From a virus, in the IMG/VR virus record IMGVR_UViG_3300048687_000113, positions 45,244-109,243 of that record: a stretch of 64,000 nt of DNA; one strand, 5' to 3'. Positions 23,799 through 44,062 of this stretch are shown one piece after another. Below the pieces are notes generated by a model. The model saw nothing but the letters and a program-made list of their open reading frames with translations, was not told the DNA's origin and made no database searches. Positions within the stretch are counted from its first letter, which is position 1; the number at the start of each line of letters is the position of its first letter. The position numbers were made by a program, and so were the translations under genes.

Positions 23799-23828
23799 CC
23801 GCCGCTCATCCCTACTCGCATCCGGCGG
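23799..23828 (+). promoter_or_regulatory. Late-gene leader hairpin 1
   Basis: CCGCC/GGCGG stem around a 20-nt loop (GCTCATCCCTACTCGCATCC), 25 bases upstream of the scaffold GTG. Member of a six-copy family with conserved loop and covarying stem. Confidence 0.65.
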
Positions 23829-23853
23829 CCCCACCAGCCTGGAGTGAACCACC

Positions 23854-24693
23854 GTGGCAACAAACCCCGCGCCCAACGGCCCGACAGAGACCGACCCCGG
23901 CACGCCGGCCGGCCCCGCCACCGGCACCGCCGTCACCCCCGAGGGGACGGTCACCGTCCAGGACCCGCCCAAGCAGCCCGAGCAGCAGTCGCAGGCCGGC
24001 CAGGAGTCCCGCTTCACAGCGGCCGACCTGGAGCGTGTCCGCCAGGAGGAGAAGGACAAGCTCTACGGCCGCCTCTCCAAGGTGGACGAGCGGTCGGAAG
24101 CCCTGGAGGCGGAGCTGAAGGAGCTTCGCGAGGAGCGCCAGGCCCGCGAAGCCGAGGAGGCCCAGCGCCAGCAGTCCGAGGCGGACGAGGCCAAGCAGAA
24201 GGCCGAGGCCGAGATGAGCGCGAAGAAGCTCCTCCAGGAACGCTCTTCGGAGTGGGAGAAGCGCTTCGAGCAGATCGAGCGGGAGCGGGAGCAGGAGCGG
24301 GCAGCGCTCGCGAAGGAGAGCGAGTACAACCGGCTGCGCGCCTACATTCAGGAGCGTGCCGGCGCGGAGCGCGACAGCATTGCTCCGGAACTTGTGGACC
24401 TCATTGCCGGGAACTCTCCGGAAGAGGTCGACGCGTCCATTGAGATGCTCAAGGACAAGACGCAGGCAATCTTCCAGTCCGTTCAGTCGGCCCAGGAGAC
24501 TGCGCGTTCGCAGATGCGCGGTGTGGCCGCCACCGGGTACACCGGGAACGGCCCGACTGACGGCGACGGCGGCTCTCGTCAGCTTTCTGCGGACGACATC
24601 AAGAACATGCCGATGGCCGAGTTTGCGAAGTATCGGAACCAGCTTCTCGGCGCCGCCGCACAGAAGACGAACAATCGCGGCCTCTTCGACTGA
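23854..24693 (+). CDS. Capsid scaffolding protein
   Basis: A 279-aa protein from GTG at 23854 with TGGAG upstream. The first 50 residues are Pro/Thr/Gly-rich. Residues from about 55 to 160 form a highly charged coiled coil (LERVRQEEKDKL; ELKELREERQAREAEE; WEKRFEQIEREREQE). The C-terminus is shorter and mixed (ADDIKNMPMAEFAKYRNQLL). Position between portal and major capsid protein, plus coiled coil, fit a scaffold that guides prohead assembly. No protease motif is seen. Confidence 0.85.
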   Translation: MATNPAPNGPTETDPGTPAGPATGTAVTPEGTVTVQDPPKQPEQQSQAGQESRFTAADLERVRQEEKDKLYGRLSKVDERSEALEAELKELREERQAREAEEAQRQQSEADEAKQKAEAEMSAKKLLQERSSEWEKRFEQIEREREQERAALAKESEYNRLRAYIQERAGAERDSIAPELVDLIAGNSPEEVDASIEMLKDKTQAIFQSVQSAQETARSQMRGVAATGYTGNGPTDGDGGSRQLSADDIKNMPMAEFAKYRNQLLGAAAQKTNNRGLFD

Positions 24694-24720
24694 CCGCGTC
24701 CACCCTGAAAAGTAGCCATA

Positions 24721-24749
24721 CCGCCTCTCGTTCCCATTCATCTCGGCGG
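24721..24749 (+). promoter_or_regulatory. Late-gene leader hairpin 2
   Basis: CCGCC/GGCGG stem around a 19-nt loop (TCTCGTTCCCATTCATCTC), 26 bases before the major capsid GTG. Confidence 0.65.
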
Positions 24750-24775
24750 GCCCGTCACGGGATGAGAGGTACAAC

Positions 24776-25918
24776 GTGGCAAGCGGAATCACCGGTACTC
24801 CGGTTCTGTCCCCCACTCCGACCGCCTACCAGGCGGCCAACTCCAGCATGCTCACGCCGGCCATTCAGCATATCTGGAGCAAAGAAATCCTGTTTCAGGC
24901 GATGCCGGTGCTTCGCTTCGAACAATTCATGGTCAAGAAGACCGAGCTTGGTACTGCTCCCGGCCTTTCGGTGTCGTTTATGCGGTACCGCTCGCTGGAC
25001 GGAGCGCAGCAGCTCGTCGAGGGCGTCCGCATGGAAACTCATGCGCTTTCCGCCGAGCAGATCACCATTACCGTGGCGGAGCACGGCTTTGCCATTGCAG
25101 TGACGGAACTCCTGCTCAATGCGAGCTTCGACGACGTGATGGCGTCCGGCGCGCGCCTCCTCGGCCGCAACATGGCCACCTACCTGGACTCGATGTGCCG
25201 GGACACGCTGCTCGGGGCTCCGTCGGTTCTGTATGGGTATGACAAGCTCGCGTCGTGGTCGGCTGGTGCCGCGCGGACGCCGCTGTCGCCGTACGACCGT
25301 GGCATGTTTGCAGACAGCGAGGCCACGATGGCTGCAAACGGCGGCTTTCACTTCACGTCTGCGCTGGTCAAGGACGCAGTCGAGACCCTGGCGACGAAGA
25401 ACGTGCCCCGATTGGGTGAAACGTACGTTGCATTCGTACATCCTCACCAAAGCCGCCGGCTCCGCGATGATCCCGAGTTCATCGAGGTGACAAAGTATGC
25501 GGCTCCCGGCAACTTTATGCTGGGAGAAATCGGACGTCTGAACGATGTCGTCTTCATCGAGACAACTCAGGTCTTCCAGGGCAATACGAACCAGCCGGCG
25601 ACCCCGCAGCTCGGCACGAACATCGCCCAGGGCGGCGCCCAGAGCTGGGGCGGACAGCCGGCCCGCAGCGCTTCCGGATCGGCTCCGGCAATTCCTGCCG
25701 TGAACGCTCAGCCGTCGAATCCGAGCGCCCCGTCCAACCCGATCTACCGTGCGCTCGTAATTGGCGACAATGCGGCCGGCCACGCCATTTCCCTCCCTGT
25801 CGAACTAAGGGATGGGGGTGTGCTCGATTTCGGCCGCGAGCATGCGCTTGCATGGTACAGCATTTGGGGACTCGGGCTGATCACGGACTACGCCGTGGTC
25901 CAGTGCGCGACGAACTGA
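24776..25918 (+). CDS. Major capsid protein, N4-gp56 type
   Basis: A 380-aa protein from GTG at 24776. The pattern fits the N4-gp56 family of HK97-fold capsid proteins: an N-terminal HIWSKEILFQAMPVLRFEQF, then GLSVSFMRYRSLD, an EGV segment (LVEGVRMETH), AVTELLLNASFDDVM and a DSMCRDTLL helix, with HPHQSRRLRDDPEF later. A Gly/Ser/Ala/Pro-rich insert around residues 280-315 (GGQPARSASGSAPAIPA) may be a surface loop. It forms the icosahedral shell. Confidence 0.92.
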   Translation: MASGITGTPVLSPTPTAYQAANSSMLTPAIQHIWSKEILFQAMPVLRFEQFMVKKTELGTAPGLSVSFMRYRSLDGAQQLVEGVRMETHALSAEQITITVAEHGFAIAVTELLLNASFDDVMASGARLLGRNMATYLDSMCRDTLLGAPSVLYGYDKLASWSAGAARTPLSPYDRGMFADSEATMAANGGFHFTSALVKDAVETLATKNVPRLGETYVAFVHPHQSRRLRDDPEFIEVTKYAAPGNFMLGEIGRLNDVVFIETTQVFQGNTNQPATPQLGTNIAQGGAQSWGGQPARSASGSAPAIPAVNAQPSNPSAPSNPIYRALVIGDNAAGHAISLPVELRDGGVLDFGREHALAWYSIWGLGLITDYAVVQCATN

Positions 25919-25996
25919 CCCACCCGCAGAAAAGGGCGGTGGCGTCATTTTCGTCACCGCCCCGAATTCAGTATCCGATTCGCTAGGAGAACACTC

Positions 25997-26383
25997 ATGC
26001 CCGCCAATCCGCGCACCAAGCGGAACCCGAAGGATCACACCGGGAACAAGAAGGCAGCCCTCGCCGAGCAGCACGCCGAAGACCTTGCCAAGCGCAAGGA
26101 CGAACTGGCGATGGACCACCAGGCGCAGAAGGCCGGCTTGGACGAGCCGATCGCCCTCGACGACAAGGGCCGGACGCTTCAGAACGTGTCCGAGGAAGCG
26201 GCCGAGGAAGGCCCGGTCGAGATCCCCCCGGAGACCGTGAATATCCGTATCGCGTGCGATCTGGAGAAAGTCACGATCGGGCAGGGCACTGCATTCGATT
26301 TCAAGGAGGGCCAGGTGTACACCGTGCCGCTTCACGTGGCTCAGCACCTGGACCGCCTCGGCTACGTGTGGCAGTGGCTCTGA
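25997..26383 (+). CDS. Hypothetical head protein
   Basis: A 128-aa protein; ATG at 25997 with AGGAG upstream. The N-terminal 50 residues are Lys/Glu-rich and extended; the C-terminal part (VNIRIACDLEKVTIGQG; VYTVPLHVAQHLDRLGYVWQ) looks like a small folded domain. Directly after the major capsid gene, it may be a head fibre or completion protein. Confidence 0.6.
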   Translation: MPANPRTKRNPKDHTGNKKAALAEQHAEDLAKRKDELAMDHQAQKAGLDEPIALDDKGRTLQNVSEEAAEEGPVEIPPETVNIRIACDLEKVTIGQGTAFDFKEGQVYTVPLHVAQHLDRLGYVWQWL

Positions 26384-26400
26384 CGGAAGGGAAGTGCCCG

Positions 26401-26778
26401 ATGGAGGCGCCCACGAGTCTCAAGGACTCCGGCATTGCCCCTGAGAAGGGCAACTGGTACGCCCTGCTTTCCGACCACGGCGACGGCGTCGGGATGCTCA
26501 CGCGCTCCTACCACTACACGAGCCCGAGCGGCGAGGAGTACCCGGACAGTGTCCGGCAGCTCTACGTCCTGGAGGTCGTCGAGCCGGCGACGTACGGCGT
26601 CGGCTACAGCACCGAGGATTCGGTGCTGTGCATGTGGCTGGCCTCTCCGACCCCGGGACGGATCGCGGTCCACCATCTGTCGCTCCCCGTCAGCCAGTTC
26701 ACCGAGCTGGTCACCGAGGGCGCTGAGCCACCCGAGTACGAAGACCTCCGGGTGCAACAGGCCGGCGGTGACCTCTGA
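26401..26778 (+). CDS. Hypothetical late protein
   Basis: A 125-aa protein; ATG at 26401 with GGAAGGGAAG upstream. Mixed alpha/beta composition with aromatic strands (NWYALLSDHGDGVGML; SVRQLYVLEVVEPATYG). Its stop overlaps the next start by one base. No family is recognised; a head-tail joining role is inferred from position only. Confidence 0.55.
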   Translation: MEAPTSLKDSGIAPEKGNWYALLSDHGDGVGMLTRSYHYTSPSGEEYPDSVRQLYVLEVVEPATYGVGYSTEDSVLCMWLASPTPGRIAVHHLSLPVSQFTELVTEGAEPPEYEDLRVQQAGGDL

Positions 26779-27269
26779 TGGCGGCCAACGGGTTCATCGC
26801 CGTCCAGGGCGCCGTGTCTGCACTGGACCACCTCGCGGGGCGTTCCACGGCGCTGGAGGCAGAGTGGCTGGCCAAAACGCAGGCCGGTGATCCGCTGCCC
26901 CGGGCCACGTACCTGATGCTCCTGACCCAGGTCGTGACCGATGCCCAGACGGACATGACGACGCTGGTCGGCGCCGAGGCCGCCGGCACCGGCTACGCGC
27001 GCCAGCCCGTCCCCTGGCTGGCCGCCGCGACCGGTACCAGGACCGCGACGACCTCAGACTTGGTGCAGTTCGGCCCGTTTTCCGACCCGACGGGGCTCGC
27101 GGCCCCGGTCACGGGTGCGGCCCTGGTGACCCGGATGACGTCCTCGGCGGGGCAGCCCTCCGGGCTGTGCCTGATGGCCTGGAACCTCGCGACGGCGATT
27201 ACCACCAGCCAGAACCAGGCGTTGCAGTTGGCCGCCGGCAGTCTCCAGATGACGTTGGCGGTGACCTGA
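26778..27269 (+). CDS. Hypothetical virion protein
   Basis: A 163-aa protein; ATG at 26778 (TGATG overlap). Ala/Thr-rich with a helical first half (ALDHLAGRSTALEAEWLAKT; LMLLTQVVTDAQTDMTTL) and a beta-rich second half (LVQFGPFSDPTG). It may be a neck or decoration protein. Confidence 0.55.
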   Translation: MAANGFIAVQGAVSALDHLAGRSTALEAEWLAKTQAGDPLPRATYLMLLTQVVTDAQTDMTTLVGAEAAGTGYARQPVPWLAAATGTRTATTSDLVQFGPFSDPTGLAAPVTGAALVTRMTSSAGQPSGLCLMAWNLATAITTSQNQALQLAAGSLQMTLAVT

Positions 27270-27313
27270 TGCGCTAGCACCGGCAACGACACCCAGCAAG
27301 ATCACTTAGCTAG

Positions 27314-27343
27314 CCAGCACTCATTCCCACTCGGTTCCGCTGG
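27314..27343 (+). promoter_or_regulatory. Late-gene leader hairpin 3
   Basis: CCAGC/GCTGG stem with the 20-nt loop ACTCATTCCCACTCGGTTCC, 17 bases before the ATG at 27361. The stem differs from copies 1, 2 and 4 at two base pairs but is fully paired. Confidence 0.7.
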
Positions 27344-27360
27344 CGGGACCGGAGGCGGGA

Positions 27361-28203
27361 ATGGCTGCTCCAGCGGACATCGTCCGCAGGATTCGATCCG
27401 AGATCGGGGACCTTGAGTCACCCTTCCTCGACACGTACCTCGGCGCGGACGAGCTGTCGTCATACGACCTCTCCGAGACCGGCGTCTCCGAGGTCACCGC
27501 GAGGGTCACGACAGTGGACCCGCCGGCCACCGTCGACCTGGTCCCCGACGTCGACTACGTCCTGGACTCCGCCCAGGGACGCATCGTCCTGATCAACCCG
27601 GACTACTCGCCCCTGCACCACGGCCAGACCCTGATCGTGCGGGGGACGGCCGAGGGCCTGTTCACCGACGCCGACCTCCAGACCTATATCGGCGACGCGG
27701 TCGAGCAGCACGCATACGGCCGGAGCCTGACGACCCGCTACCGGGACGCCCACGGCTTCATCCGCTATGACCACGCCCCCATCACCCTGGAAAACCTGCC
27801 GGCCGTCGAGGAGCCGCTGGTCGCCTACCTCGCGGCCATCAACTGCCTGTGGACGCTCGCCACCGACGCGGCCACCGACATCGACATCTCCACGGCCGAG
27901 GGCACCTTCGTTCCCCGCACCCAGCGCTACCGGCAGCTCATGCAGCACATCGGGGACGCCACCACCGGACTCCAGGGCCGCTACAACACCCTCGCCCAGC
28001 AGCTCAACGTGGGCCTCGGCCGGATCGAAATGTTCACCGCCCGCCGGGTCTCGCGCACCACCAACCGGCTCGTGCCCGTCTTCAAGGAGCGCGAGTACGA
28101 CGACTCCTCGAAGCCCCAGCGGCTGCTCCCGCCGATCGACGGTGACGCGTACGACGACGAGTCGGGCGTGCCCTCCCCCGCCTACCCGGGCCTGTGGGGG
28201 TGA
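27361..28203 (+). CDS. Head-tail connector-like protein
   Basis: A 280-aa protein; ATG at 27361. The N-terminus (ADIVRRIRSEIGDLESPFLD) and the helical core (LTDADLQTYIGDAVEQHAYG-like; EEPLVAYLAAINCLWTLATDAATD) resemble phage connector or adaptor proteins with a four-helix bundle. The C-terminus is basic and polar. It is preceded by leader hairpin 3 and followed closely by 28210. Confidence 0.6.
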   Translation: MAAPADIVRRIRSEIGDLESPFLDTYLGADELSSYDLSETGVSEVTARVTTVDPPATVDLVPDVDYVLDSAQGRIVLINPDYSPLHHGQTLIVRGTAEGLFTDADLQTYIGDAVEQHAYGRSLTTRYRDAHGFIRYDHAPITLENLPAVEEPLVAYLAAINCLWTLATDAATDIDISTAEGTFVPRTQRYRQLMQHIGDATTGLQGRYNTLAQQLNVGLGRIEMFTARRVSRTTNRLVPVFKEREYDDSSKPQRLLPPIDGDAYDDESGVPSPAYPGLWG

Positions 28204-28209
28204 GCGGCA

Positions 28210-28803
28210 GTGCGTGGACGACTTGACTGGAAGCGGGGCCGGTGGAACATCAACGCGGAGACGACGCTGATCCACCGGGGCCTGCGCGGGTGGCAGCGCG
28301 CCACCGGCGACTCCTTCACGTACTTCCGCTGGCAGTACGACGAGTCGGAAATGCACCCCGTCTACGACGAGGCCACCGGCTCAGGAAAGCACTTCTACGG
28401 CCGCTTCCAGCTCCCCGCGCTGCACGTGAACCACACCGAGGCGGCAAATACGGAGCCGCGTGACAGTGGCCTGTACATCGTCGACTCGCTGCACGTCACG
28501 GCCGAGTTCGACCAGCTCGCCAAGACCGGTCTGCGGGACATCAACATCCGGCACGGCGCCTACCAGCGCGACCGCATCGCCTACGACAACTTGCTCTTCG
28601 CGGTGAAGCACGTCGACATCCGGGGGCAGATCCGCCGCCGGGACATCCTCGTCACGATCGACGCCGAGCAGCTCCGCGACGACGAGCTGGTCAACGACCC
28701 GACGTTCGCCGCGTATCTGCGGGACTTCAGCCGCAACCCCGATCCGGTGCAGCCGAAGCCTTCTCCCACACCACTGGAGGGCGGCGATGATCCCTACGCC
28801 TGA
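28210..28803 (+). CDS. Head-tail joining / neck-like protein
   Basis: A 197-aa protein from GTG at 28210. Beta-rich (WNINAETTLIHRGLRG; FTYFRWQYDES; YIVDSLHVTAEFDQL; RDILVTIDAEQLRDDELV), consistent with a neck or tail-completion protein by position. It overlaps the next gene by 17 bases. No definite family assignment. Confidence 0.55.
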   Translation: MRGRLDWKRGRWNINAETTLIHRGLRGWQRATGDSFTYFRWQYDESEMHPVYDEATGSGKHFYGRFQLPALHVNHTEAANTEPRDSGLYIVDSLHVTAEFDQLAKTGLRDINIRHGAYQRDRIAYDNLLFAVKHVDIRGQIRRRDILVTIDAEQLRDDELVNDPTFAAYLRDFSRNPDPVQPKPSPTPLEGGDDPYA

Positions 28804-29470
28804 GATTGCCATGCCCGCGCTGCCCTCCGGGGTGCCCCTGGTGCGTCTGACCGGCCGCTTCATCGCGCCGGACGGAACGCCGCTGACCGGCAAGCTCACG
28901 TTCGCACCGCCGATGGTGATCACCCTGCCGGGCGCCGACACCATCTCTCCCATCCCCGCCACCGTGGAGATCGGCAAGGAGGACCAGGGGAGCTTCGCGG
29001 TGAACCTGATCGCCAGCGACGCCCCGGGAATGTCGCCGAGCGGCTGGACGTACCGGGTTACCGAGAAGATCACGGGCGCGCAGATGCGCGAGTACCACAT
29101 CCTGCTGCCCTGGCGGGAGGACAGCGCGTCCGTCGACCTCGCCGACCTGGCGCCCGCCTCGCCCTACACCGGCCGTTACCTGCCCGTCGTCGGAGCCACC
29201 GGACCCCAGGGTCCACAGGGCATTCCCGGGGAGGTCCAGCACACCGAGCTTCAGGCCCTGGAGGAACGCGTCGCGCCGCGACCGGTGTCGTGGACACAGA
29301 CCGTGGCGAGCACTGAATGGAACATCACCCACGCCTTCCCGTACCGGCCCGGGGTGCGCACGTACGACAACAGCGGCCGGGAGATCGGCGGCCTTGTCTC
29401 CCACCTCACCGACACCAGCGTGACCGTCCAGTTCGCCCATGCGGAGACCGGATCGGCGATTTTGAGCTAG
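28787..29470 (+). CDS. Virion fibre protein with short collagen-like linker
   Basis: A 227-aa protein; ATG at 28787. The N-terminal 130 residues form a beta domain (VRLTGRFIAPDGTPLTGKL; SWTYRVTEKITG-like). A short collagen-like run, GATGPQGPQGIPG, lies near residues 142-155, followed by a C-terminal beta domain (WNITHAFPYRPGVRTYD). This layout is typical of trimeric phage fibres or appendages. It is the first of four consecutive fibre-type genes. Confidence 0.7.
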   Translation: MIPTPEIAMPALPSGVPLVRLTGRFIAPDGTPLTGKLTFAPPMVITLPGADTISPIPATVEIGKEDQGSFAVNLIASDAPGMSPSGWTYRVTEKITGAQMREYHILLPWREDSASVDLADLAPASPYTGRYLPVVGATGPQGPQGIPGEVQHTELQALEERVAPRPVSWTQTVASTEWNITHAFPYRPGVRTYDNSGREIGGLVSHLTDTSVTVQFAHAETGSAILS

Positions 29471-29480
29471 GAGCCTTTTT

Positions 29481-30593
29481 ATGGCAGTGACCGATTTCCG
29501 TGAGTCCCTCCGGCTGAATTCTCTGCCCGTGCACGGGCTGGTGCCGGAGACGTCCTCCGCCCCGCCGGCCACGCCGGTGGAGGGCCAACTGTGGGCCGAT
29601 TCCGTCAACCATGTCGTGAAGTTCTGGAACCTGACGACGTGGAAGAACGCGCTCGACCGCAGTGACCACACCGGCGCGCAGCCGGCCGCCACGATCTCCG
29701 ATCTCGCCGCCACGGTGAAGGGCTACCGGCTCGACGAATTCACGGCCCCGACCGCTGCGGTTTCGCTGAACGGGCAACGGGCCACCAACGGCGCCGACCC
29801 GGTGGCCGCGACCGACCTGGCCACACGGCAGTACGTGGACAACGCCCGCGCGGGCATCGCCGGGGTGAAGGACCCCGTACGAGCAGTCGCCACTACGAAC
29901 ATCAACCTGGCCTCGCTGCCCGCCACCATCGGCGGCGTCACCATGGCCAGCGGCGACGGCTTCCTGGCGGCGGGGCAGACGACCGGCACCCAGAACGGCA
30001 TCTACGTCTACGGCTCGTCCGGCGGCTCTGCCACCCGCCGTTCGGACGCCGACCTCCTCGGGGACATCCGCGACGGCACGATGGTGGCAGTGGCCGAGGG
30101 CACGGACGCCGGCACCCAGTACATCCAGACCGCCACTGCCTCCGGTGCTCCGGGTGCCTGGACGCAGACGTGGGTCAAATTCAGCACCGGCGGTCAGACC
30201 TACACCGCCGACGGCCAGGGCCTGGAGCTGTCCTCCACGACGTTCTCCCTGGAGCTGGCCGACGCCACCCTCTCGAAGTCGGCGGCCGGTCTCACCATCG
30301 GCATGGTGCCCATCTCCAAGGGCGGCACAGGTGCGACGACGGCCGCAGGAGCACGCAGTGCTCTGAGCGCGGTGGGCAAGTACGCGGCCAATGTGCCTGC
30401 CATTACCGGCGGGACGCCCCTTCAGATCACGCACGGGCTCAACACGATGGACGTCCAGGAGCCGACACTGCGCGAGATAGCCACCGGTGAACTCGTGGGC
30501 GTAAAGCCCGTCGTGGTCGACGCCAACACCATCTCAATCACCACGGCATCGTCGTATCCCGCCGGCACCTTCTCGATTGTGGTGATCGGCTGA
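29481..30593 (+). CDS. Tail/neck fibre protein
   Basis: A 370-aa protein; ATG at 29481. Typical phage fibre repeats: LDEFTAPTAAVSLNGQRATN with ATDLATRQYVDNA, then ISKGGTGATTAAGARSAL, the phage tail-fibre repeat of trimeric fibres. The C-terminus (LQITHGLNTMDVQEPTLREIA) is a beta domain shared by many fibres. Involved in surface attachment. The stop overlaps the next ATG. Confidence 0.85.
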   Translation: MAVTDFRESLRLNSLPVHGLVPETSSAPPATPVEGQLWADSVNHVVKFWNLTTWKNALDRSDHTGAQPAATISDLAATVKGYRLDEFTAPTAAVSLNGQRATNGADPVAATDLATRQYVDNARAGIAGVKDPVRAVATTNINLASLPATIGGVTMASGDGFLAAGQTTGTQNGIYVYGSSGGSATRRSDADLLGDIRDGTMVAVAEGTDAGTQYIQTATASGAPGAWTQTWVKFSTGGQTYTADGQGLELSSTTFSLELADATLSKSAAGLTIGMVPISKGGTGATTAAGARSALSAVGKYAANVPAITGGTPLQITHGLNTMDVQEPTLREIATGELVGVKPVVVDANTISITTASSYPAGTFSIVVIG

Positions 30594-30802
30594 TGGCCGG
30601 CCGTCAACTCGCCTCGCAGACAGTGCCCACCACCGGCGGCAACGTGCTCACCACCGACAAGGTCGGCGCAGTCTCGGGGGTCGCCGGCCTCGACACCGGC
30701 GGCAAGGTCCCCCAGAGTCAGCTCCCCACCCCGAAGATCACCGTCGGCACCACGGCGCCCGTGTCCCCCGCTGTCGGGGACGTGTGGATCGACACGAACT
30801 GA
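30593..30802 (+). CDS. Small fibre-associated protein
   Basis: A 69-aa protein; ATG at 30593. VAGLDTGGKVPQSQLP and a terminal APVSPAVGDVWIDT match short modules found at fibre C-termini or just before receptor-binding domains. Coupled on both sides by TGATG overlaps, it probably forms part of the fibre with its neighbours. Confidence 0.65.
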   Translation: MAGRQLASQTVPTTGGNVLTTDKVGAVSGVAGLDTGGKVPQSQLPTPKITVGTTAPVSPAVGDVWIDTN

Positions 30803-31539
30803 TGGCACGGCTCGTCACATGCGGGTTCGAAGCGAAGTCGGCCTCGGAGTGGGGCGGTACCGAGGGCACCGCCCCCGTCTTCTCGACGACGGTGAAGAAC
30901 AGCGGCACCGCGTCGGCCCGCTTCCAGAACACGACCGCGTCGGCCCGCTCGATCCGCTTCGCTGCCTACGCGGACGACGAAACAGGCAAGCTGAAAAACG
31001 TCTTCATCCGCGCCTACGTCCGGCTGGACACGGCGCCGGCCGCGCAGACCGCGATCCTCGCGTGGGATGACACGACCGGGATCGGGACAGCGTCCTTCTA
31101 CGGCATCAAGATCAACACGAACCGGACGCTGATCTGCACCTCGTCCACCGGGACTACCGGGACCGCGTCGGCCGCGCTGACGCTCGGTACCTGGTACCGG
31201 CTGGAGATGAACTACAACGAGGTGGCGAAGCAGGCGACGCCGTACCTCAATGGCACTGCGTGGGCGTCGCCGATTTCCGCTGACCTGGGTGGTGGCCACT
31301 GGGCGCGCTTCGGGATTATCAACTCCACCACGGCCGACATCTATTTCGACGATATCGCGGTCAATGACTCCACGGGGACTATCGACAACGGTTTGCCCGG
31401 GGCGATCAGTACTTCCACCGGAGTCCCGGCGAAAGTGTGGACAGGCAGTGCCTGGGCCACGAAGCCGGTCAAGGTGTGGACGGGCAGTGCCTGGGCCCCG
31501 AAAACGGTGCGGGTACGCACGTCCACAGCCTGGCGATAG
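30802..31539 (+). CDS. LamG/concanavalin-like fibre protein
   Basis: A 245-aa protein; ATG at 30802. Residues 1-195 have a concanavalin/LamG-like jelly-roll pattern (FIRAYVRLDTAPAAQTAI; FYGIKINTNRTLICTS; GTWYRLEMNYNE; ADIYFDDIAVND). The C-terminus is a tandem repeat of about 12 residues, VKVWTGSAWAPK, three units. It is likely a carbohydrate-binding receptor tip. Confidence 0.75.
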   Translation: MARLVTCGFEAKSASEWGGTEGTAPVFSTTVKNSGTASARFQNTTASARSIRFAAYADDETGKLKNVFIRAYVRLDTAPAAQTAILAWDDTTGIGTASFYGIKINTNRTLICTSSTGTTGTASAALTLGTWYRLEMNYNEVAKQATPYLNGTAWASPISADLGGGHWARFGIINSTTADIYFDDIAVNDSTGTIDNGLPGAISTSTGVPAKVWTGSAWATKPVKVWTGSAWAPKTVRVRTSTAWR

Positions 31540-31882: not shown

Positions 31883-31913
31883 TTCCCGCATCTGCGCGAG
31901 AAGGGAGCGGGCT

Positions 31914-35055: not shown

Positions 35056-35085
35056 CCGCCTCTCATTCCCACTCGTTTTCGGCGG
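35056..35085 (+). promoter_or_regulatory. Late-gene leader hairpin 4
   Basis: CCGCC/GGCGG stem with the 20-nt loop TCTCATTCCCACTCGTTTTC, 28 bases before the tail tube GTG. Confidence 0.65.
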
Positions 35086-35113
35086 CCCTCCGACCGGGAT
35101 TGAGAGGTGACCA

Positions 35114-35698
35114 GTGGGAGCCACGACCACAACGCAGAAGCCTTCGCTCGCACAGCTCCAGACGGACCCCCTGAGGAATTTCAAATTTCAGGTGATGATT
35201 CACCTGGCGAATTCCACGCTGGACTCCAGCAAGCGGTCCAACCAACTGGGCTTCATGTCCGTTTCCGGCCTGTCGATCACCACGGACGTGGTGGTCTACC
35301 GGCAGGGCGGCATGAACACAACAACGCAGAAAATGCCTGGTCAGAGCGATTTTGCCCCCATCACGCTCTCGCGTGGGCTCATCTGTGGCGACTCCGACAT
35401 CTACGCCTGGCTGAAGCAGCTCTTCATGGTCATGCAGGGCACCGGCGGAAATGACGGCTCCTACAATTTCCGCGCCACGATGGACATCTTCCTCCTCGAC
35501 CACCCGGTGACCACGTCGAGTGTCACCTATAAGGCCGGTTGGCGCGTCTACAACTGCTGGCCGACCTCAATTGCATTCGGCGATCTCGACAGTGGCGCGA
35601 ACGGAGTTGAACTCCAGCAGATCACCCTCGCGCACGAAGGTTGGGATTTCAAGATCGCCAGCAAGTACGGGCCGGGCTCCGGCATTTCCCTGCCGTAA
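35114..35698 (+). CDS. Tail tube protein
   Basis: A 194-aa protein from GTG at 35114. It fits the T4 gp19-like tube family: an N-terminal LRNFKFQVMIHLANS, FMSVSGLSITTDVVVYRQGG, a PITLSRGL segment and a C-terminal VELQQITLAHEGWDF. Hexameric rings stack to form the inner tube. It follows the sheath, as usual. Confidence 0.92.
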   Translation: MGATTTTQKPSLAQLQTDPLRNFKFQVMIHLANSTLDSSKRSNQLGFMSVSGLSITTDVVVYRQGGMNTTTQKMPGQSDFAPITLSRGLICGDSDIYAWLKQLFMVMQGTGGNDGSYNFRATMDIFLLDHPVTTSSVTYKAGWRVYNCWPTSIAFGDLDSGANGVELQQITLAHEGWDFKIASKYGPGSGISLP

Positions 35699-36586: not shown

Positions 36587-36728
36587 CTACCGCCGCGCAT
36601 TCAGCGAGATCGAAATCCTCACCCTCGTCCACCCCGCCTGGCAACTGACGGAAATCAAGAGCCTCTCCATCCGTGAACGGCGCCACTGGATCAGCCGAGC
36701 CGCCTGGGAAGTAGAAAGGAGGGCGTAA
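36576..36728 (+). CDS. Short baseplate partner, probable +1 frameshift extension
   Basis: This frame encodes about 50 residues (ECDYRRAFSEIEILTLVHP; WQLTEIKSLSIRERRHWIS) and ends with TAA directly before the tape measure GTG. It contains no ATG, GTG or TTG. The pattern (HPAW, then a basic RERRHWISRA helix) resembles the short DUF6760-like proteins that follow gp26-like genes in contractile injection loci. Because no start is available, it is most likely made as a frameshift fusion with 35729-36586. Confidence 0.65.
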   Translation, partial: AECDYRRAFSEIEILTLVHPAWQLTEIKSLSIRERRHWISRAAWEVERRA

Positions 36729-39629
36729 GTGGCCACCCCACCCCCGCCGCCCAATCCGCCCCCCGCCCCGACGAACCAACTCGGCAACCAGATCGACGCC
36801 TTGACCAGGGCGTTCACCAGTTTCACCAACCGGTTCGCGAGTTCGGCCGGCCTCGGCACGCTGAGCATGGGGGCCTATGGCCCCATGGGCGGACAGACCC
36901 GCCAGGATCACCAGCTCGGCAATCTCCAGCAGCAGTACCTCCAGACGAACCAGGCGCACATCGTCGCCCGCCAGCGCATGGAGGACGACGTCCAGCAGCA
37001 GCAGATCCGCTGGGCACAGCAGCGGCGCACGCAACTGGGCATCATCAACAATCCGAGGTCCACGCTCGCCCAGGAGACCGAGGCCCGCCAGCGCCTCGGA
37101 GAGGGCTCGCAGCTCAACCGGATTCGCACGGACGCCATCGACCGCGACTGGCAACTGCGGGAGAACAACTTCTCCGGGTCGATGGTCCGCATGAACTCCG
37201 ACATGGACCGGCTGCGCCAGCAGTCCGCCCAGACGACCACCATGAACCGGCTCGCGTTCGCCGGCCAGGTCACCGGCTCCGTCGTCGGGGCCGCGAGGAG
37301 CTACTACAGCGGCGACATCGAAGAACAGCTCGGCCAGTTCGAGCGGCGCCTGTCACTCCAGCGTCCCTCGTGGAAGGGCACCTCCGGCGAGCGAGCGCGC
37401 AGCCTCGGCTACGAGATGAAGCGCAACGGCTCGCTGCTCTGGGCCACCTCGAACGAGGACGCCATCGGCGGGCAGACGGACATCCTCAACCAGAACCCCT
37501 ACGACCAGTACACGCGTCAGACCCGCCGGGCCACCGGAGCCGCCTACGTCACCCCCGGCCTGGGCGTTCAGGGCGGCGCGCAGATGCAGCAGGAACTCGG
37601 CACCGGTCAAGCCTTCTACGCGTCCCAAATGTTCGGCCTGGCGCCGACGCGGTTCGGCGGCGGTGAGCAGAATTCCCCGGCCGCGATGGCGCTGTCGCTC
37701 GCGCAGAGGGTGAATGGCGGTGACTTCAAGAACCTGACTGGCTCCGAGCTGCATGCCCAGCTCGCCCAGGGCGGCTCGCTGTCCATGTCGATGGCCAACT
37801 GGGGCAAGGCTGCCGGGGTTTCCGGCCAGTCGCTCGAAGCCATGCGCAACCAGACCGAGCTTCTGCGCGACTTGGTCAACCCGGAGAAGAAGGGCCTGAA
37901 GGGGGTTTCGGAGAAGCGTGCTCTGAAGCTGATCGAAAACGCGGGCCGGCACGACGACACCGGCGAAGAGTCCCGCGAGGAGATTCAGAAGTACTCCGAC
38001 AGCGTCGGCAAGAGCTACCAGGACTCCCAGCGCTTCCTCGCCGGCACCAGCCGCGAGGGGCATCTGCCCGCCAGCGCCAGCTTCCTCGACGCCGCGCGGG
38101 CCAGCGCCGACACCCTCGCCGACATCAAGACGATTCTGCAAAAGGCCCTCGAACCGATGGCCGACGCGATCGGCTCCGTGGCCGGCAGCTCCAAGGGAGG
38201 CGGGTTCTGGGGGTCGTTGGGGTCCGGCCTGAAGTCCGGGTGGAACTGGGGCGACAACCTCGTCTTCGGCGACGCCGGCGAGGGGACCGAACAGGACTCC
38301 CTCGCCAAGAAGGCATGGCGGGGCATCAGCGGGATCTTCGGCGGTGATTCCGGTACGCCGGAGTCCAAGCAGGGCAGCTCGGGGAAGAAGAAGTCGGACT
38401 CGGCCGGCGTCGCGGGCGGCGGCGTCAGCAGCGCCATCGGATTCGCCCGCGCGCAGCTCGGCGACCGCTACGTGCTGGGCGCCACCGGCCCCAACGCCTG
38501 GGACTGCTCAAGCCTCATGCAGGCCGCCTACAAGAAGGCCGGCGTCAACCTGCCGCGAGTCACCTACGACCAGATCAAAAAGGGCGTCGAAGTCCCGATG
38601 GACGAGATCAAGCCTGGCGATCTCGTGTTCTACAAAGACCTCTCCCACGTCGGGATGTACACCGGAAGCGGCAAAGTACTCGAAGCCGCGAATCCCGGGC
38701 GAGGCGTCGTCGAAGGCCCGATGTACTCAAAGTTCAAGAGGGCCCGGCGCGTTCTGGCCGGCGGCATGGAGGCCAAGGCCAGCCTTTCCGGAGAGAACGA
38801 AGATCCGACCTCTTCGCAGTCCGGAGGCGGCGGACTCAAGATATCGGGCGCCTACGGGTCCGTAGAAGAGGTCGACGCGCTTGCCGCAGCATTGTCGGGC
38901 GGCGGCGGTGACCAGGCCGTCAGCCGCACCCCGAGTGCCTCGCAGAACGAAGAGGCCGAGGACGAGGGGAGCAGCGACGCCGGCAAGGATGCCCCGCACA
39001 ACGTGCAGAAGAACGTCGCACTCGGCAAGAAGATGGCCGCCTCCTACGGCTGGACGGGCAGTAACTGGACCGCGCTCTACAAGCTGTGGATGGGCGAGTC
39101 CGGGTGGCGGCACTGGGCCGACAACCCCAACTCCGACGCGTACGGCATCCCGCAGGCGATGTCGAACATCCATAAGGAGACCGCGACTGCCGCCTGGCGC
39201 AACTCCCCCGAGAAGCAGATCGCTTGGGGTCTGAAATACATCAAGGGCCGCTACGGCAGCCCCTCCCGGGCGTGGTCGTTCTGGAACTCCAAGAGTCCCC
39301 ACTGGTATGCCGACGGCGCATGGGAAGTGCCGGGACAGTCCGGTGAAGGCATCGACGCGAAATTGCACGGCGGCGAAATGGTGCTGGAGCGCAATGCCGC
39401 TCACACCGTCCGCCAGGCGCTCCTCAACCAGGGACTGACACCGTCACCGAACCAGGGCTCTGGCGCCTCCGGCGGCTCCACGGGGTCGGTCACGCTCCAG
39501 TTCGGCGCCGGCTCCGTCGTCGTGCAGATGCCGGCCGCCACCGCCGAGGGCGCGAAGTCGGCCGCCAGCTCCTTCGTCAGCTACGTCGCCGCCGACGACC
39601 GCATCAAGTCCCTGATGGGGGGCTGGTAG
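36729..39629 (+). CDS. Tape measure protein with NlpC/P60 and SLT-like domains
   Basis: A 966-aa protein from GTG at 36729. Helical, Gln-rich N-terminal half. An NlpC/P60 peptidase domain spans about residues 565-680, with Cys593 (NAWDCSS) and His640 (SHVGMY). A lytic transglycosylase-like domain spans about residues 760-870, with catalytic-type Glu790 (WMGESGWRHWADNP) and AYGIPQAM. The C-terminus (GIDAKLHGGEMVLERNAAHTV) is typical of tape measures. It fixes tail length and probably opens peptidoglycan when ejected. Confidence 0.92.
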   Translation: MATPPPPPNPPPAPTNQLGNQIDALTRAFTSFTNRFASSAGLGTLSMGAYGPMGGQTRQDHQLGNLQQQYLQTNQAHIVARQRMEDDVQQQQIRWAQQRRTQLGIINNPRSTLAQETEARQRLGEGSQLNRIRTDAIDRDWQLRENNFSGSMVRMNSDMDRLRQQSAQTTTMNRLAFAGQVTGSVVGAARSYYSGDIEEQLGQFERRLSLQRPSWKGTSGERARSLGYEMKRNGSLLWATSNEDAIGGQTDILNQNPYDQYTRQTRRATGAAYVTPGLGVQGGAQMQQELGTGQAFYASQMFGLAPTRFGGGEQNSPAAMALSLAQRVNGGDFKNLTGSELHAQLAQGGSLSMSMANWGKAAGVSGQSLEAMRNQTELLRDLVNPEKKGLKGVSEKRALKLIENAGRHDDTGEESREEIQKYSDSVGKSYQDSQRFLAGTSREGHLPASASFLDAARASADTLADIKTILQKALEPMADAIGSVAGSSKGGGFWGSLGSGLKSGWNWGDNLVFGDAGEGTEQDSLAKKAWRGISGIFGGDSGTPESKQGSSGKKKSDSAGVAGGGVSSAIGFARAQLGDRYVLGATGPNAWDCSSLMQAAYKKAGVNLPRVTYDQIKKGVEVPMDEIKPGDLVFYKDLSHVGMYTGSGKVLEAANPGRGVVEGPMYSKFKRARRVLAGGMEAKASLSGENEDPTSSQSGGGGLKISGAYGSVEEVDALAAALSGGGGDQAVSRTPSASQNEEAEDEGSSDAGKDAPHNVQKNVALGKKMAASYGWTGSNWTALYKLWMGESGWRHWADNPNSDAYGIPQAMSNIHKETATAAWRNSPEKQIAWGLKYIKGRYGSPSRAWSFWNSKSPHWYADGAWEVPGQSGEGIDAKLHGGEMVLERNAAHTVRQALLNQGLTPSPNQGSGASGGSTGSVTLQFGAGSVVVQMPAATAEGAKSAASSFVSYVAADDRIKSLMGGW

Positions 39630-39664
39630 CAGCCATCGCCCCGCACTGTTTCTGAGACTCATGG

Positions 39665-39694
39665 CCAGCCTTCATTTCTGCTCGGTTCCGCTGG
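39665..39694 (+). promoter_or_regulatory. Late-gene leader hairpin 5
   Basis: CCAGC/GCTGG stem with the 20-nt loop CTTCATTTCTGCTCGGTTCC, 18 bases before the ATG at 39713. Confidence 0.65.
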
Positions 39695-39712
39695 CGGAAC
39701 TGGAGGCTTCAC

Positions 39713-40435
39713 ATGGCCGAGAAGAAGTCGGACGGTCCGGTCAATCTGCCAGCCAAGGGGATCTGGGAGAACACGTTCGACCGCCGAATCCAGAACATCC
39801 CTTCTTACCTTCCCGGCGAGCCGGGGACCAGCTTCGGGCTCCAGCGGGGCTACATGGTCTCCGCGTTCCCGAAGGACAGCAAGGCCAAGAAAAACCGGTT
39901 CTACATGCTGAATTTCCTGTACAACCCGTCGCAGGTCAGCGTGAACCACAGTACCGACGCAGCGAATCAGGTCATGCCGGCGTACACGCGCTCCGACTTG
40001 GACAACGGGATGCCGTTGGTAGCGGCGGGCGGCTCGCTGTCCTTCGCGCTGCTTTTCGACCGCACCTACGAGATGTCGGACCCCACCAAGTTCGACACGA
40101 TCGAGGGCACATACGGGGTGATGGCCGATGTGCACGTGCTCTACAACCTCCTCGGCATCACCGCGACGCAGAAGGTCAAGGAAACCGGCAGTGAGGGCGA
40201 CAACACCTACGACGGCAACGTGCTCGGCATTATGCAGATGAGCCCGCTGTGGTGTCGCTTCGGGCAGGCCCGCCACTCTTTCAAGGACAAGCTGCCGGCG
40301 ATCTCCAGAATGGAGTACTTCGGGTACGTCAACAACATCGGGATTACCTATAGCCATTTCACGCAGCGTATGACGCCTGTGCGGTGCGCCGTCGACATCA
40401 GCATGACGCTCATGTCGTCCTACGGATGGGTGTGA
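39713..40435 (+). CDS. CIS-tube-like baseplate protein
   Basis: A 240-aa protein; ATG at 39713. The middle RFYMLNFLYNPSQVSVNHS, followed by GGSLSFALLFDRTYEM, fits the tube-initiation (CIS_tube) domain of contractile injection systems, usually encoded with a LysM partner as here. The C-terminus (ITYSHFTQRMTPVRCAVDI) is also typical. Likely sits at the tube-baseplate junction. Confidence 0.75.
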   Translation: MAEKKSDGPVNLPAKGIWENTFDRRIQNIPSYLPGEPGTSFGLQRGYMVSAFPKDSKAKKNRFYMLNFLYNPSQVSVNHSTDAANQVMPAYTRSDLDNGMPLVAAGGSLSFALLFDRTYEMSDPTKFDTIEGTYGVMADVHVLYNLLGITATQKVKETGSEGDNTYDGNVLGIMQMSPLWCRFGQARHSFKDKLPAISRMEYFGYVNNIGITYSHFTQRMTPVRCAVDISMTLMSSYGWV

Positions 40436-40444
40436 GGAGAGGCA

Positions 40445-40729
40445 ATGGCCATTTCCCGGACGTCGCGATATCAGCGCAACGCGACGGCACTCGTCGCCGA
40501 CCGCAAAGGGCAGCTCCAGCTCGCCGTGATGCAGCGCTCGCCCACCGACCAGTCGCTGCGTGTGTCGGACTACCGGTGGCGCAGCGGCGAGCGTGTCGAC
40601 TCCGTCGCCAGCGAGTACTACGGCAGCGAGACGAGCTGGTGGATGTACGCCGAGGCGAACCCGCAGGTGCTCGACTGGACGAATCCGCCGGCCGGCCTTC
40701 AGATCATGGTGCCCCGTGGCGTGGCGTAA
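40445..40729 (+). CDS. LysM-like baseplate protein
   Basis: A 94-aa protein; ATG at 40445 with GAGGAG upstream. The second half is LysM-like: YRWRSGERVDSVASEYYG, then WWMYAEANPQVLDW and a final GLQIMVPRG. In contractile systems such modules (gp53-like) follow the tube-initiation protein. It overlaps the next gene by 14 bases. Confidence 0.8.
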   Translation: MAISRTSRYQRNATALVADRKGQLQLAVMQRSPTDQSLRVSDYRWRSGERVDSVASEYYGSETSWWMYAEANPQVLDWTNPPAGLQIMVPRGVA

Positions 40730-41915
40730 CACGTACAAGCCCCATCTGACGGCCTCGCAGCCCGCGTTGGAGAGCGGCGCGTGGCTGTCGAGCTTCGAGC
40801 TGTATCAGGCCGAGCAGGCGCACCAGGTCGCCGAGCTGACGGTGATGCACACCTACAACCCCGCGCTGCCCTCCCAGCAGTGGCGGACCCCGGCCGGGTC
40901 GGTGTGGGCGGAGAACACGCCGGTTCATCTGAAGTTCGGGTGGTGGGCGGACGACAGCGCCGACTGGTACGGGTACGTGGCCTCCTCCCGGGTGCTCGCC
41001 TCGGAGAGCGATCCCCGTTATGGGCACGCGGTGCAGATACCCGTGGTCTACACGCTCACCGGCACCAGCATGCTGACGCAGACCCGCCGCAACCGGACCT
41101 GGCGCGACACCTCGGCGTCCGCCATTGCGAGGACAGTGGCCTCCGAGTACAACCTTCAGCCGCGAGTCGACGGCTCCAGCGTGGTCTTCGCGCAGCAGAT
41201 GCAGTCCATGAGCGACTGGCAGTTCCTGTGCGACATCTCCGACCAGATCGGCTACCGCGTCTACGTGGACGGCACCGTGATGTGGTTCGTGGACCGCGAG
41301 ACGGTCATGCCGGCCTCCGACGGGAGCGTGCCTACGTTCCGGATGACTAAGGCGCCCGGGGCCATCGACACCTTGCGCGAGTTCTCGGCCGTCCTGGGCG
41401 ACACGGACCCCGCAGGAGGCGTCCGGGCGCGGTACCAGGCAGTGGCCTACAACCGCACCTCCAGCGTCCTCACACCGGCCACGTACTCCCAGAGCCGGAC
41501 CACTTTGCACGGGCAGCAGGTCGCGGCCCTCCTGGACCGGCAGTACGGCGACCGGCCGGCCGCGTCCTACAACCAGGCGAACCGGCTGCTGGCCGCCGAG
41601 TCGGACTGGCTGTGGGTCGAGGCCCGCGCGGAATCCAACGGGGACCCGCGCCTGAGGCCGGGCACACTCGTGGACCTCCAGGGCAACGCGGTCGGCGAGA
41701 GCAATCTGGGCCTGTGGATGGTGCGTTCCGCCGTCCACAAGATCAACATCAACCTGGTGTACCCGCAGAAGACGACGTACACCTCCACCCTCGTGCTCGG
41801 CCGCAACGACGCCCGCAAGTTGGACCTTCGGGTGCAGCAGCCGCCCGTGCATCCCGCGCCGACCGTCCTCGTCAACGGCCGCTGGCGGGCCGCGTACACG
41901 GGAGGGCTGACATGA
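40716..41915 (+). CDS. Baseplate hub protein, gpD/VgrG N-terminal-like
   Basis: A 399-aa protein from GTG at 40716. Residues 1-130 form a beta domain (WYGYVASSRVLASES). Later SASAIARTVASEYNLQP and MSDWQFLCDISDQIGYRVYVDG are the hallmark of phage late control gpD, T4 gp27 and VgrG hub domains. The C-terminus carries LRPGTLVDLQGNAVGE and a WMVRSAVHKI strand. It forms the central hub to which the spike binds. Confidence 0.85.
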   Translation: MAWRNTYKPHLTASQPALESGAWLSSFELYQAEQAHQVAELTVMHTYNPALPSQQWRTPAGSVWAENTPVHLKFGWWADDSADWYGYVASSRVLASESDPRYGHAVQIPVVYTLTGTSMLTQTRRNRTWRDTSASAIARTVASEYNLQPRVDGSSVVFAQQMQSMSDWQFLCDISDQIGYRVYVDGTVMWFVDRETVMPASDGSVPTFRMTKAPGAIDTLREFSAVLGDTDPAGGVRARYQAVAYNRTSSVLTPATYSQSRTTLHGQQVAALLDRQYGDRPAASYNQANRLLAAESDWLWVEARAESNGDPRLRPGTLVDLQGNAVGESNLGLWMVRSAVHKININLVYPQKTTYTSTLVLGRNDARKLDLRVQQPPVHPAPTVLVNGRWRAAYTGGLT

Positions 41916-42883
41916 CGGCTCTGTACGGGACCTACAGCGCCATCGTGGTCTCCGCCCAGGACCCGCAGCATCGCGGCCGGGCGCAACTGCGCATCCCCCA
42001 GATCATGGGGACGGCGGTGAGCGGCTGGGCAGTGCCGGTCACCCTCGGCGCGGTCCTGCCCGGCGACCAGGTGTACGTGATGTTCGACGGCGGCGACCGC
42101 TCGGTGCCGCTGTTTTGGCCTCAGCCGCGCGGCGGCGCACAGGGCTGGGTTCCACTGTCGCTGTCGGCCGGCTGGGCTCCTGGCATCAACGGGACGCCGT
42201 CGGCCCGCCTCGGCCAGGACGGCATGATCGAGCTGGCAGGGTCGATCACCACCGACACCCTCAGCGTCGGCGTCTCCACGAAGTTCTCGGCACTGCCCGG
42301 CGGCCTCGGCCGGCCGGTGCACCGGGTTATCCAGCCGGTCGCCACCGACTACCGCACCGCCTTCCGCTCCACGGTCGCGTTCGCCGAGTACCGCATCTCG
42401 CATTCGGTGACCTCCACGAGCTACGGCCCCGATGCCAACGGGCCCGTCGCCACGTTCGTCGCCCCCGGCAGCGGCGCCGCCGCCATCGTCTTCGGCGCAC
42501 ACGTACAGAACACGGTCAGCACAGGGCGTGCCGTAATGAGCCTCCAGGTCTCGGGAACCACCGGCGTGGTCGCCCCGGCCGACGACAACCACGCGGCGGA
42601 AGGCCAGAGCGCCAACAACGCCACCGTCGCCGGCTCCTACTTCCTGACCGGGCTCACCCCCGGCTCGACGTACACCGTCACCGCGATGTACCGCTCCGAC
42701 GGCACCAACAACTCGGCCACCTTCGACAACAAATGGATCACCGTGACGCCCACCGTCATGGACAACTCGCCGATGGCCCGCATCGCCGTCGAGACCAGCG
42801 GAGAGCTGCGCGCGCTCTTCGCCGCCTCGCACTATCCGCCGTACGCGGCCTCGCTGGACGGCGTGCGCGTGCGCGCCGTGTAA
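41912..42883 (+). CDS. Tail spike/hub protein with gp5-type OB domain
   Basis: A 323-aa protein; ATG at 41912 (ATGA overlap). The N-terminal 90 residues match the Phage_base_V/gp5 OB fold (YSAIVVSAQDPQHRGRAQLRIP; PGDQVYVMFDGGDRSVPLFW). The rest is beta-rich with an FN3-like module (LTGLTPGSTYTVTAMYRSD) and a C-terminal jelly-roll-like segment. It probably forms the cell-puncturing spike or its base. Confidence 0.8.
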   Translation: MTALYGTYSAIVVSAQDPQHRGRAQLRIPQIMGTAVSGWAVPVTLGAVLPGDQVYVMFDGGDRSVPLFWPQPRGGAQGWVPLSLSAGWAPGINGTPSARLGQDGMIELAGSITTDTLSVGVSTKFSALPGGLGRPVHRVIQPVATDYRTAFRSTVAFAEYRISHSVTSTSYGPDANGPVATFVAPGSGAAAIVFGAHVQNTVSTGRAVMSLQVSGTTGVVAPADDNHAAEGQSANNATVAGSYFLTGLTPGSTYTVTAMYRSDGTNNSATFDNKWITVTPTVMDNSPMARIAVETSGELRALFAASHYPPYAASLDGVRVRAV

Positions 42884-42896
42884 AGGAGAGAAGGCA

Positions 42897-43988
42897 GTGG
42901 CCTACCCGAACTTCCGCCACCTGGCAGCCGACAAGATCCTCGGCATCGACTACGACATCAAGAACCGCTACGGGTCGGGCACCTACCTGCTGCATGCCGC
43001 GATCCACGGCGGCGGCATCGAGCCGCCCACCTCCCAGCTCGCGGCCTACTGCGCCGGCGACGGCGCCTGGTACTCCTTCGAGGCCCTCAACGACCTCACC
43101 GCCCAGACCGTCAAACTGCCGGCCGTAGCCTTCGACGAGCCGTTCTGCGTCGTGAACGCCGGCAACTCCAGCCGGACCGTGGTGTGGCACGGCGTGGACG
43201 ACCAGCGCGAGGCCGAGCAGGTCACGTACATCAGCGGCGCCGACTCCGTGCTGGCCTCGCTGATCGTCCAGGAACTCGTCGCCGCCGGCTTCCAGACCGA
43301 CCGCGCCCCGGTCACGTTCGAGGGCGAGACCCCGCAGAACATCTGCAACCGCAACAAGGCTCGGGCAGGTGTCCAGCTCGACCTCTCCTACACCCTGCGC
43401 AAGTCGTTCTACGCGAGCGGGGACCTCTCCACGGCCGCCCTCTCCCAGCCCGACAACCGGCTGCCGGCCTTCTTCGCCTACGGCGACGCCATCCGCCGGG
43501 CCTGCGCCCAAGTCCCCCTGGCGAGCGACACCGACGACGTCCCGCCGGTCATCACCCAGCCGCGCACGCCCGCCAGCCAGGACGTCAGCACCGCCATGCG
43601 CACCCCCTTCGCCATCGACCACTCCGGCGGTGTCTCGGCCACCACCGACGAGCGCGAGCAGCTCGTGGACCGGGTGCACGCCCTGGTGGGCACGCTGCCC
43701 GGTGAGCGCGTCATGCGCGCCACCTACGGTGTGCCGACCTCGGCCTCCCTGTTCGCGATCAACCCGGAGATCGCCAATGATCAGTTGCAGCGGGCCGTCA
43801 TCGACGCCGTCGCGCAGTTCGAGCCGTCCGCCGTGGTCTCCGCCATCGTCGCCGACGTGAACGAGAACCTGGGCTCGGTCAACGTCAACGTCCAGGTGAG
43901 CCGCGCCGACGTGCCCGGCGCCGAGCGCGACAACACGCGGTCGGTCGGCGTCCTGGTGGGCGGCACCGTCATTTCCACTCCGGAGTAA
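42897..43988 (+). CDS. Poly-gamma-glutamate hydrolase / gp25 baseplate wedge fusion
   Basis: A 363-aa protein from GTG at 42897 with AAAGGAG upstream. Residues 1-185 match the phage poly-gamma-glutamate hydrolase family (PghP type): AIHGGGIEP with H37 and E42, AFDEPF, a second HG at H98 (VVWHGVDD), VTYISG, QNICNRNKARAGVQLDL and LRKSFY. Residues about 236-355 match gp25-type wedge proteins (LVDRVHALVGTLPGERVMR; TYGVPTSASLF; IVADVNENLGSVNVNVQVS). The enzyme is a zinc amidohydrolase cleaving gamma-glutamyl bonds of surface capsules; here it would be built into the baseplate. Confidence 0.88.
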   Translation: MAYPNFRHLAADKILGIDYDIKNRYGSGTYLLHAAIHGGGIEPPTSQLAAYCAGDGAWYSFEALNDLTAQTVKLPAVAFDEPFCVVNAGNSSRTVVWHGVDDQREAEQVTYISGADSVLASLIVQELVAAGFQTDRAPVTFEGETPQNICNRNKARAGVQLDLSYTLRKSFYASGDLSTAALSQPDNRLPAFFAYGDAIRRACAQVPLASDTDDVPPVITQPRTPASQDVSTAMRTPFAIDHSGGVSATTDEREQLVDRVHALVGTLPGERVMRATYGVPTSASLFAINPEIANDQLQRAVIDAVAQFEPSAVVSAIVADVNENLGSVNVNVQVSRADVPGAERDNTRSVGVLVGGTVISTPE

Positions 43989-44031
43989 TTAACGGGCATT
44001 CCGCCTGCCTCCGTAGAATCCCCTTATCAGG

Positions 44032-44062
44032 CCAGCACTCATTTCTCATTCGGTTCCGCTGG
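44032..44062 (+). promoter_or_regulatory. Late-gene leader hairpin 6
   Basis: CCAGC/GCTGG stem around a 21-nt loop (ACTCATTTCTCATT, CGGTTCC), 25 bases before GTG 44088. Confidence 0.65.

Follow-up and report, generated by a model that had tools for sequence, protein, structure and literature searches.

The window analyzed here takes up the final 64 kb of a virus contig (G000) of 109,243 bases, and its structural genes match those of contractile-tailed Streptomyces phages. The capsid of the window is 60-62% identical to those of LuckySocke, Alone3, BRock, GiJojo, and pSt2308, and close relatives of the window phage are present in IMG/VR. Pfam scans identified portal, scaffold (weak match), major capsid (24776-25918), T4 gp19-type tail tube (Phage_T4_gp19, 35114-35698), and baseplate J (Baseplate_J, 44088-45611, with the start taken from ortholog comparison) genes, the last three on the + strand. 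The names given to the capsid, tube, and J genes in the initial annotation were borne out by family matches; the CIS_tube match of the CIS-tube-like gene was below the Pfam cut-off, and the gene at 27361, called connector, had no Pfam family match.

Some other features of the phage and its relatives were observed. A single ORF at 42897-43988 contains both PF05908 (poly-gamma-glutamate hydrolase) and PF04965 (gp25 baseplate wedge), and possibly encodes a capsule-degrading baseplate protein. The first 40 kb of the contig carries phage genes that match Lsr2 (two ORFs), WhiB, SpoVS, RecA, and serine recombinase. The capsid orthologs of relatives contain one or two group I introns (Rfam RF00028; 2882-3139 and 4114-4384 in L011, 3717-3974 and 4943-5196 in L013, 7808-8049 and 8354-8606 in L134, 10125-10381 in L124, and 10146-10397 in L135), and the capsid gene of the window is uninterrupted. 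A 7.4-Mb bacterial genome (G042), taken from a set of genomes related to the Streptomyces sp. CBMA29 assembly, carries a close relative of the window phage. The late genes of this relative occur twice, about 109,671 bases apart, at about 4553000-4686000 of G042:C1, as expected of a tandem or duplicated prophage.

Six hairpins, designated S1, occupy gaps in the otherwise tightly packed late operon of the window. Each has a perfect 5-bp stem and a loop of 19-21 nt. The stem is CCGCC/GGCGG (class A) in the leaders of the scaffold (23799-23828), major capsid (24721-24749), and tail tube (35056-35085) genes, and CCAGC/GCTGG (class B) in those of the connector (27314-27343), CIS-tube-like (39665-39694), and J (44032-44062) genes. 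The positions, stems, classes, and loop lengths are all as first annotated. The spacers between the stem and the start codon are 25, 26, 17, 28, 18, and 16 nt for scaffold, capsid, connector, tube, CIS-tube-like, and J, respectively; five of them lie within the previously given range of 17-28 nt, and J, at 16 nt as annotated, has a spacer of 25 nt if its start is at 44088. At the position of the annotated start (44079), the J ortholog in G002 has an in-frame TGA; thus, GTGGCA at 44088 is likely the J start, and 44079 is probably wrong.

The six hairpins are the only copies in the contig. A pattern consisting of either stem plus NYTCRY at the loop start occurred six times in the window and 0.03 times on average (maximum, one) in 100 dinucleotide shuffles; a looser pattern that allowed any GC-rich 5-bp stem occurred seven times, against 0.73 in shuffles. 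We built two covariance models, one from the class A copies and the other from the class B copies. These gave exactly six matches in the 109-kb contig (E < 1e-7), all on the sense strand and all before structural genes, with scores of 43.3 (scaffold), 56.2 (capsid), 56.3 (connector), 64.7 (tube), 48.2 (CIS-tube-like), and 69.6 bits (J), and no match in the early half of the contig. As the models were built from these same copies, the independent support comes from orthologous positions in relatives, where the covariance-model search proposed in the initial annotation also found copies. Rfam gave no match at the gathering threshold in the window and none at E up to 1 in 23700-28000. No intrinsic terminator (a GC stem followed by a T run) was found on the + strand at the leaders scanned, and a search of the open-licence literature found nothing relevant on such leaders in Streptomyces phages.

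At least six related phages carry S1 at the orthologous genes. In G001, G002, G007, and G042, class A copies stand before scaffold, capsid, and tube; the partial contigs G003 and G008 have them before scaffold and capsid. Tube leaders with S1 were also found in L146 and in the divergent L155. Class B precedes J in all 14 of the J homologues of at least 58% identity examined (the window, G001, G002, G007, L139, L140, L141, L142, G011, G012, G013, G014, L325, and G042), except that the stem of G013 has one A.C mismatch and that of G011 is shifted by one base. The similar structures whose absence from relatives was to count against the element are thus present before scaffold, capsid, tube, and J. 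G001 has an extra S1 before the portal gene. The connector leader of the window has no counterpart in G001, G002, G003, and G007, and the CIS-tube-like leader has none in G001, G002, and G007; in these relatives, the gene starts directly at the preceding stop codon. As these two leaders are restricted to the window in this comparison, the element appears to spread between genes. To judge from the distribution, the J copy looks oldest, and S1 would have been copied from gene to gene. No S1 was found at the capsid gene in the BRock/LuckySocke group, L012-L014, and L134. A degenerate scan of IMG/VR with the class A pattern gave 64 matches, among which the covariance model confirmed only contigs already known; the five matches to the class B pattern were all unrelated. 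Such scans thus yielded mainly chance matches.

The stems of the J leaders include CCAGC/GCTGG, two forms with G-U pairs (CCGGC/GCTGG and TCAGC/GCTGG), and TGGCA/TGCCA. In this set, 57 of 58 cells pair, both sides change in two pairs, and slid controls reached at most 64%; the covariation was equalled by 32 of 500 shuffles. The class A arms are invariant across 17 copies. The covariation initially claimed within the window amounts to a single class-level difference, and better evidence comes from the relatives, namely a third stem type, the G-U pairs, and the pairing of 57 of 58 cells. We consider the covariation support modest. The loop length varies from 19 to 22 nt across relatives and, because G-U pairs and a free loop length are tolerated, an RNA helix is favored over a DNA palindrome. 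The proposal of an RNA element tied to translation starts is supported by the conserved, G-U-tolerant stem, the variable loop length, the restriction to the sense strand, and the invariable location before a start codon.

In the capsid, tube, connector, CIS-tube-like, and most J leaders, the loop is complementary to the SD or start region that follows, and in some cases the match takes in the final bases of the 5' arm. This complementarity to the RBS was missed in the initial annotation, and points to sequestration of the RBS in cis. In the window capsid leader, the SD region GGGATGAGAGG (24759-24769) is the 11-bp partner of CCTCTCGTTCC in the 5' arm and loop, with two G-U pairs; among capsid leaders, CCTCTCATTCC and GGAATGAGAGG are exact complements, and the helix of the window is kept by the two G-U pairs. 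The tube SD region GGGATTGAGAGG (35096-35107) is the partner of CCTCTCATTCCC with one U-U. In the G002 tube leader, both sides are changed relative to capsid (CCTCTCATTTC/GAAATGAGAGG), and the divergent tube leader of L155 has 10 bp (TTCGTTTCCG/CGGAAATGAG). The CIS-tube-like SD, GGAGGCT (39702-39708), pairs with AGCCTTC of the 5' arm and loop; the match in this leader is AGCCTTCA/TGGAGGCT, and CCTTC of the loop is opposite GGAGG. In class B, the CTGG of the S1 3' arm becomes the loop of a competing hairpin, which has 9 bp in L139 (CCGGTATCG-CTGG-CGGTATCGG) and is GGTTCCG-CTGG-CGGGACC in the connector leader (27333-27350; MFE -41.7 for 75 nt). In the J leader, the SD region AGAGGAA and the preceding arm (44063-44087) pair with the loop in the long predicted fold. 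The scaffold SD, GGAGTGA (23841-23847), is weakly complementary to its own loop.

When the pairing of each loop was compared among 30 gene starts, its own SD ranked first for capsid, connector, and J, second for tube, sixth for CIS-tube-like, and 18th for scaffold. The loop-SD energy was better than in dinucleotide shuffles for capsid (p 0.002-0.018), most tubes, connector, and most J leaders, and was not above shuffles in five of six scaffold leaders (p 0.2-0.5). The TC at the loop start is kept in nearly all capsid and tube leaders, and drifts in the scaffold leaders, whose SD is not GAGAGG. The inner helix of J covaries, one pair being seen as CG, AU, UA, and UG (score reached by 9 of 500 shuffles). 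In class A, the consensus loop-SD complementarity is strong (91% of cells), but the covariation between loop and SD was not above shuffles (91.3%, against 90.2%; 61 of 500). In the J leaders of L142 and G012, S1 is kept and the inner helix is not clear; of the two, S1 is better conserved and may have a separate function. The upstream half of the loop is favored in capsid G008 and tube G007 and L146, and the downstream half in capsid G007 and tube L155. A pseudoknot alone was rejected as the conserved state, as the preferred half differs among leaders; the robust part is only that one or the other half of the loop is predicted to pair with the SD. The possibility of an RNA acting in trans by complementarity to the loops was also rejected: the longest complements listed were only the antisense strand of the loops themselves.

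In silico folding predicted an order of structures. In most leaders folded, S1 is the predicted MFE structure while the growing RNA reaches no further than 3-22 nt beyond the stem, and in longer RNA an SD-sequestering fold is predicted to be better by 3-20 kcal/mol; the J leader of G014 has no predicted nascent S1 window. Since the loop is complementary to the RBS, the leaders look bistable, with the small stem forming first and a stabler fold that buries the SD or start following. From heuristic barriers and an assumed rate constant, the lifetimes would be seconds to minutes for class B and longer for class A, values to be taken as indicative only. In the predicted folds, the SD or start is mostly paired: the connector SD GGAGG and ATG start (27351-27363) are paired in the long fold (probability that the start is unpaired 0.00; z -3.0), and the CIS-tube-like SD has a probability of being unpaired of 0.00 (z -3.7). 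Control genes had fold z scores of -1.1 to +1.5; those of the tube, connector, CIS-tube, and J leaders reached -2.6 to -3.7, and those of capsid (-1.3) and scaffold (-0.7) were not outstanding. The scaffold leader and a few J leaders fit the bistable pattern poorly.

The J leader has an additional feature upstream. A promoter-like box, ATTAAC-N20-TAGAAT, lies at 43988-44019 (+ strand), upstream of the J leader only. At a distance of 12-14 nt before S1, the J leaders share ATTAMC-N17-20-CGTAGAAT or a sequence close to it, the weakest match being that of L142; each of the four genomes scanned had the full CGTAGAAT box once, at J. Its conservation suggests a separate transcript for J that begins within the late operon, and such a promoter would put S1 5-7 nt from the mRNA 5' end. 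The other leaders showed no ATTAMC-type box, so their S1 copies probably lie within long transcripts.

We propose, with a probability of about 0.5, that the S1 leaders act in cis as two-state translational switches with SD sequestration. S1 would form first on the nascent RNA and leave the RBS open, and the loop would then capture the SD in the stabler fold and turn translation off. S1 may thus serve as an anti-sequestrator: ribosomes would load while the transcript is nascent or as long as S1 is held by something, and mRNA that is older or arises by read-through would refold and be shut off. The timing and dose of structural proteins could in this way be set gene by gene within long late transcripts, with refolding either running by kinetics alone or being held by a factor, from the phage or the host, that recognizes the stem and loop common to the leaders. 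The pairing potential and the order of folds were computed, and from these we infer the effect on translation. The main weaknesses of the two-state reading are the scaffold leader, the J leaders of L142 and G012, and a buried RBS on abundant proteins, which is odd given the very high output needed of capsid and tube. We also consider, more tentatively and as rather doubtful, that a single bistable leader is a portable cassette that moved among the J, scaffold, capsid, tube, connector, and CIS-tube-like genes, its loop being re-fitted to each RBS, to form a late-gene translational regulon timed by refolding or by one factor. Little is understood of how protein ratios are set within long late phage transcripts, particularly in actinophages. 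If the loop tracks the SD of each gene, these leaders would show, in a form open to direct testing, how a single RNA design is adjusted along a morphogenesis operon and, if the proposal is true, would provide a compact translational switch for Streptomyces.

The invariance of S1 leaves room for a trans-acting binder, and S1 with its loop could be an operator through which an RNA-binding protein of the phage or host coordinates the translation of late genes, the match between loop and SD being secondary. The sharing of one motif by six genes, the invariant class A arms, and the conservation of loops even at scaffold, where SD pairing is weak, all agree with this reading. We regard it as unlikely, as the loop sequence shifts with the SD of its own gene, and the Pfam families of the 112 contig ORFs scanned included no CsrA, Hfq, or RegA and no candidate binder for a hairpin of the RegA, coat, or gp43 type. 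A role at the DNA level, with the inverted repeats serving as promoter or operator in the manner of ESAS in cluster K mycobacteriophages, is less probable still. Inverted repeats with invariant arms before start codons would suit it, and ESAS carry SigA-like promoters (PMC11373665). However, the arm spacing varies from 19 to 22 nt, the G-U changes break the DNA symmetry and keep the RNA pairing, and the promoter-like box of J is 12-14 nt outside S1. In addition, consensus scans found no sigma-70-like promoter at leaders in the two stretches scanned (the tube leader is outside both), and Pfam scans found no sigma factor or RNA polymerase family in the contig ORFs scanned.

Two further explanations give S1 a place in mRNA production or decay. 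A processing or stability element, either an RNase III-type cut site or a 5' protective hairpin separating late cistrons, would be in keeping with the location of S1 in the gaps of the late operon and at the predicted mRNA 5' end of J. Yet S1 is only 5 bp, the long capsid helix of about 11 bp is short for RNase III, and the matching of loop to SD would be left unexplained; we thus think this explanation quite improbable. The poorest candidate is a device of the T4 e/soc type, in which the hairpin silences read-through transcripts and an internal late promoter produces a short, translatable mRNA without the 5' strand. The anatomy of SD sequestration before late genes is the same (for T4, see PMC3014915), but the J box lies upstream of the whole structure, so that the transcript would hold both strands, and no -10-like box was found inside the capsid leader.

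Among known systems, the cis-acting two-state leader proposed here shares features with several groups. SAS and ESAS of cluster K mycobacteriophages (PMC3203893, PMC11373665) are likewise repeated, start-associated inverted repeats in actinophages that are common to orthologous genes. However, ESAS are 17-bp imperfect inverted repeats with a SigA promoter and an adjacent 13-bp SAS (GGGATAGGAGCCC), and their repeats do not support RNA pairing; the S1 arms are 5 bp, their pairing is kept through changes, no SAS sequence occurs in the leaders, and no promoter was found inside the leaders scanned, which rules out ESAS. Moreover, SAS are located in the non-structural arm, whereas the S1 genes are all structural. 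The leader of T4 gene 32 is a pseudoknot through which gp32 autoregulates its gene (PMC3014915), and class A leaders could form an H-type pseudoknot from S1 and the pairing of the 3' loop half with the SD; in our leaders, this would be one of two possible pairings, and gp32 autoregulates one gene. In the metastable leaders of the MS2 maturation gene and the hok and aapA3 mRNAs (PMC6733600), an early transient hairpin competes with a later, stabler fold that controls access to the SD. The predicted energies of the S1 leaders follow the same order, with the exception of J in G014, although S1 belongs to a DNA phage, forms a multi-gene family, and is known here from sequence only. In anatomy, the S1 leaders resemble those that sequester the SD in T4 genes e, soc, 49, and I-TevI (PMC3014915), in which a phage mRNA leader before late genes buries the SD and/or start in a helix. 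The SD or start is paired with the upstream leader in the predicted capsid, tube, connector, CIS-tube, and J folds, the scaffold pairing being weak. The S1 leaders differ from those of T4 in that no promoter is apparent inside the hairpin, and in that S1 is repeated before six structural genes and adds a second conserved, competing stem. The best reading of the S1 leaders is thus as a variant, absent from Rfam, of the SD-sequestering phage leaders.
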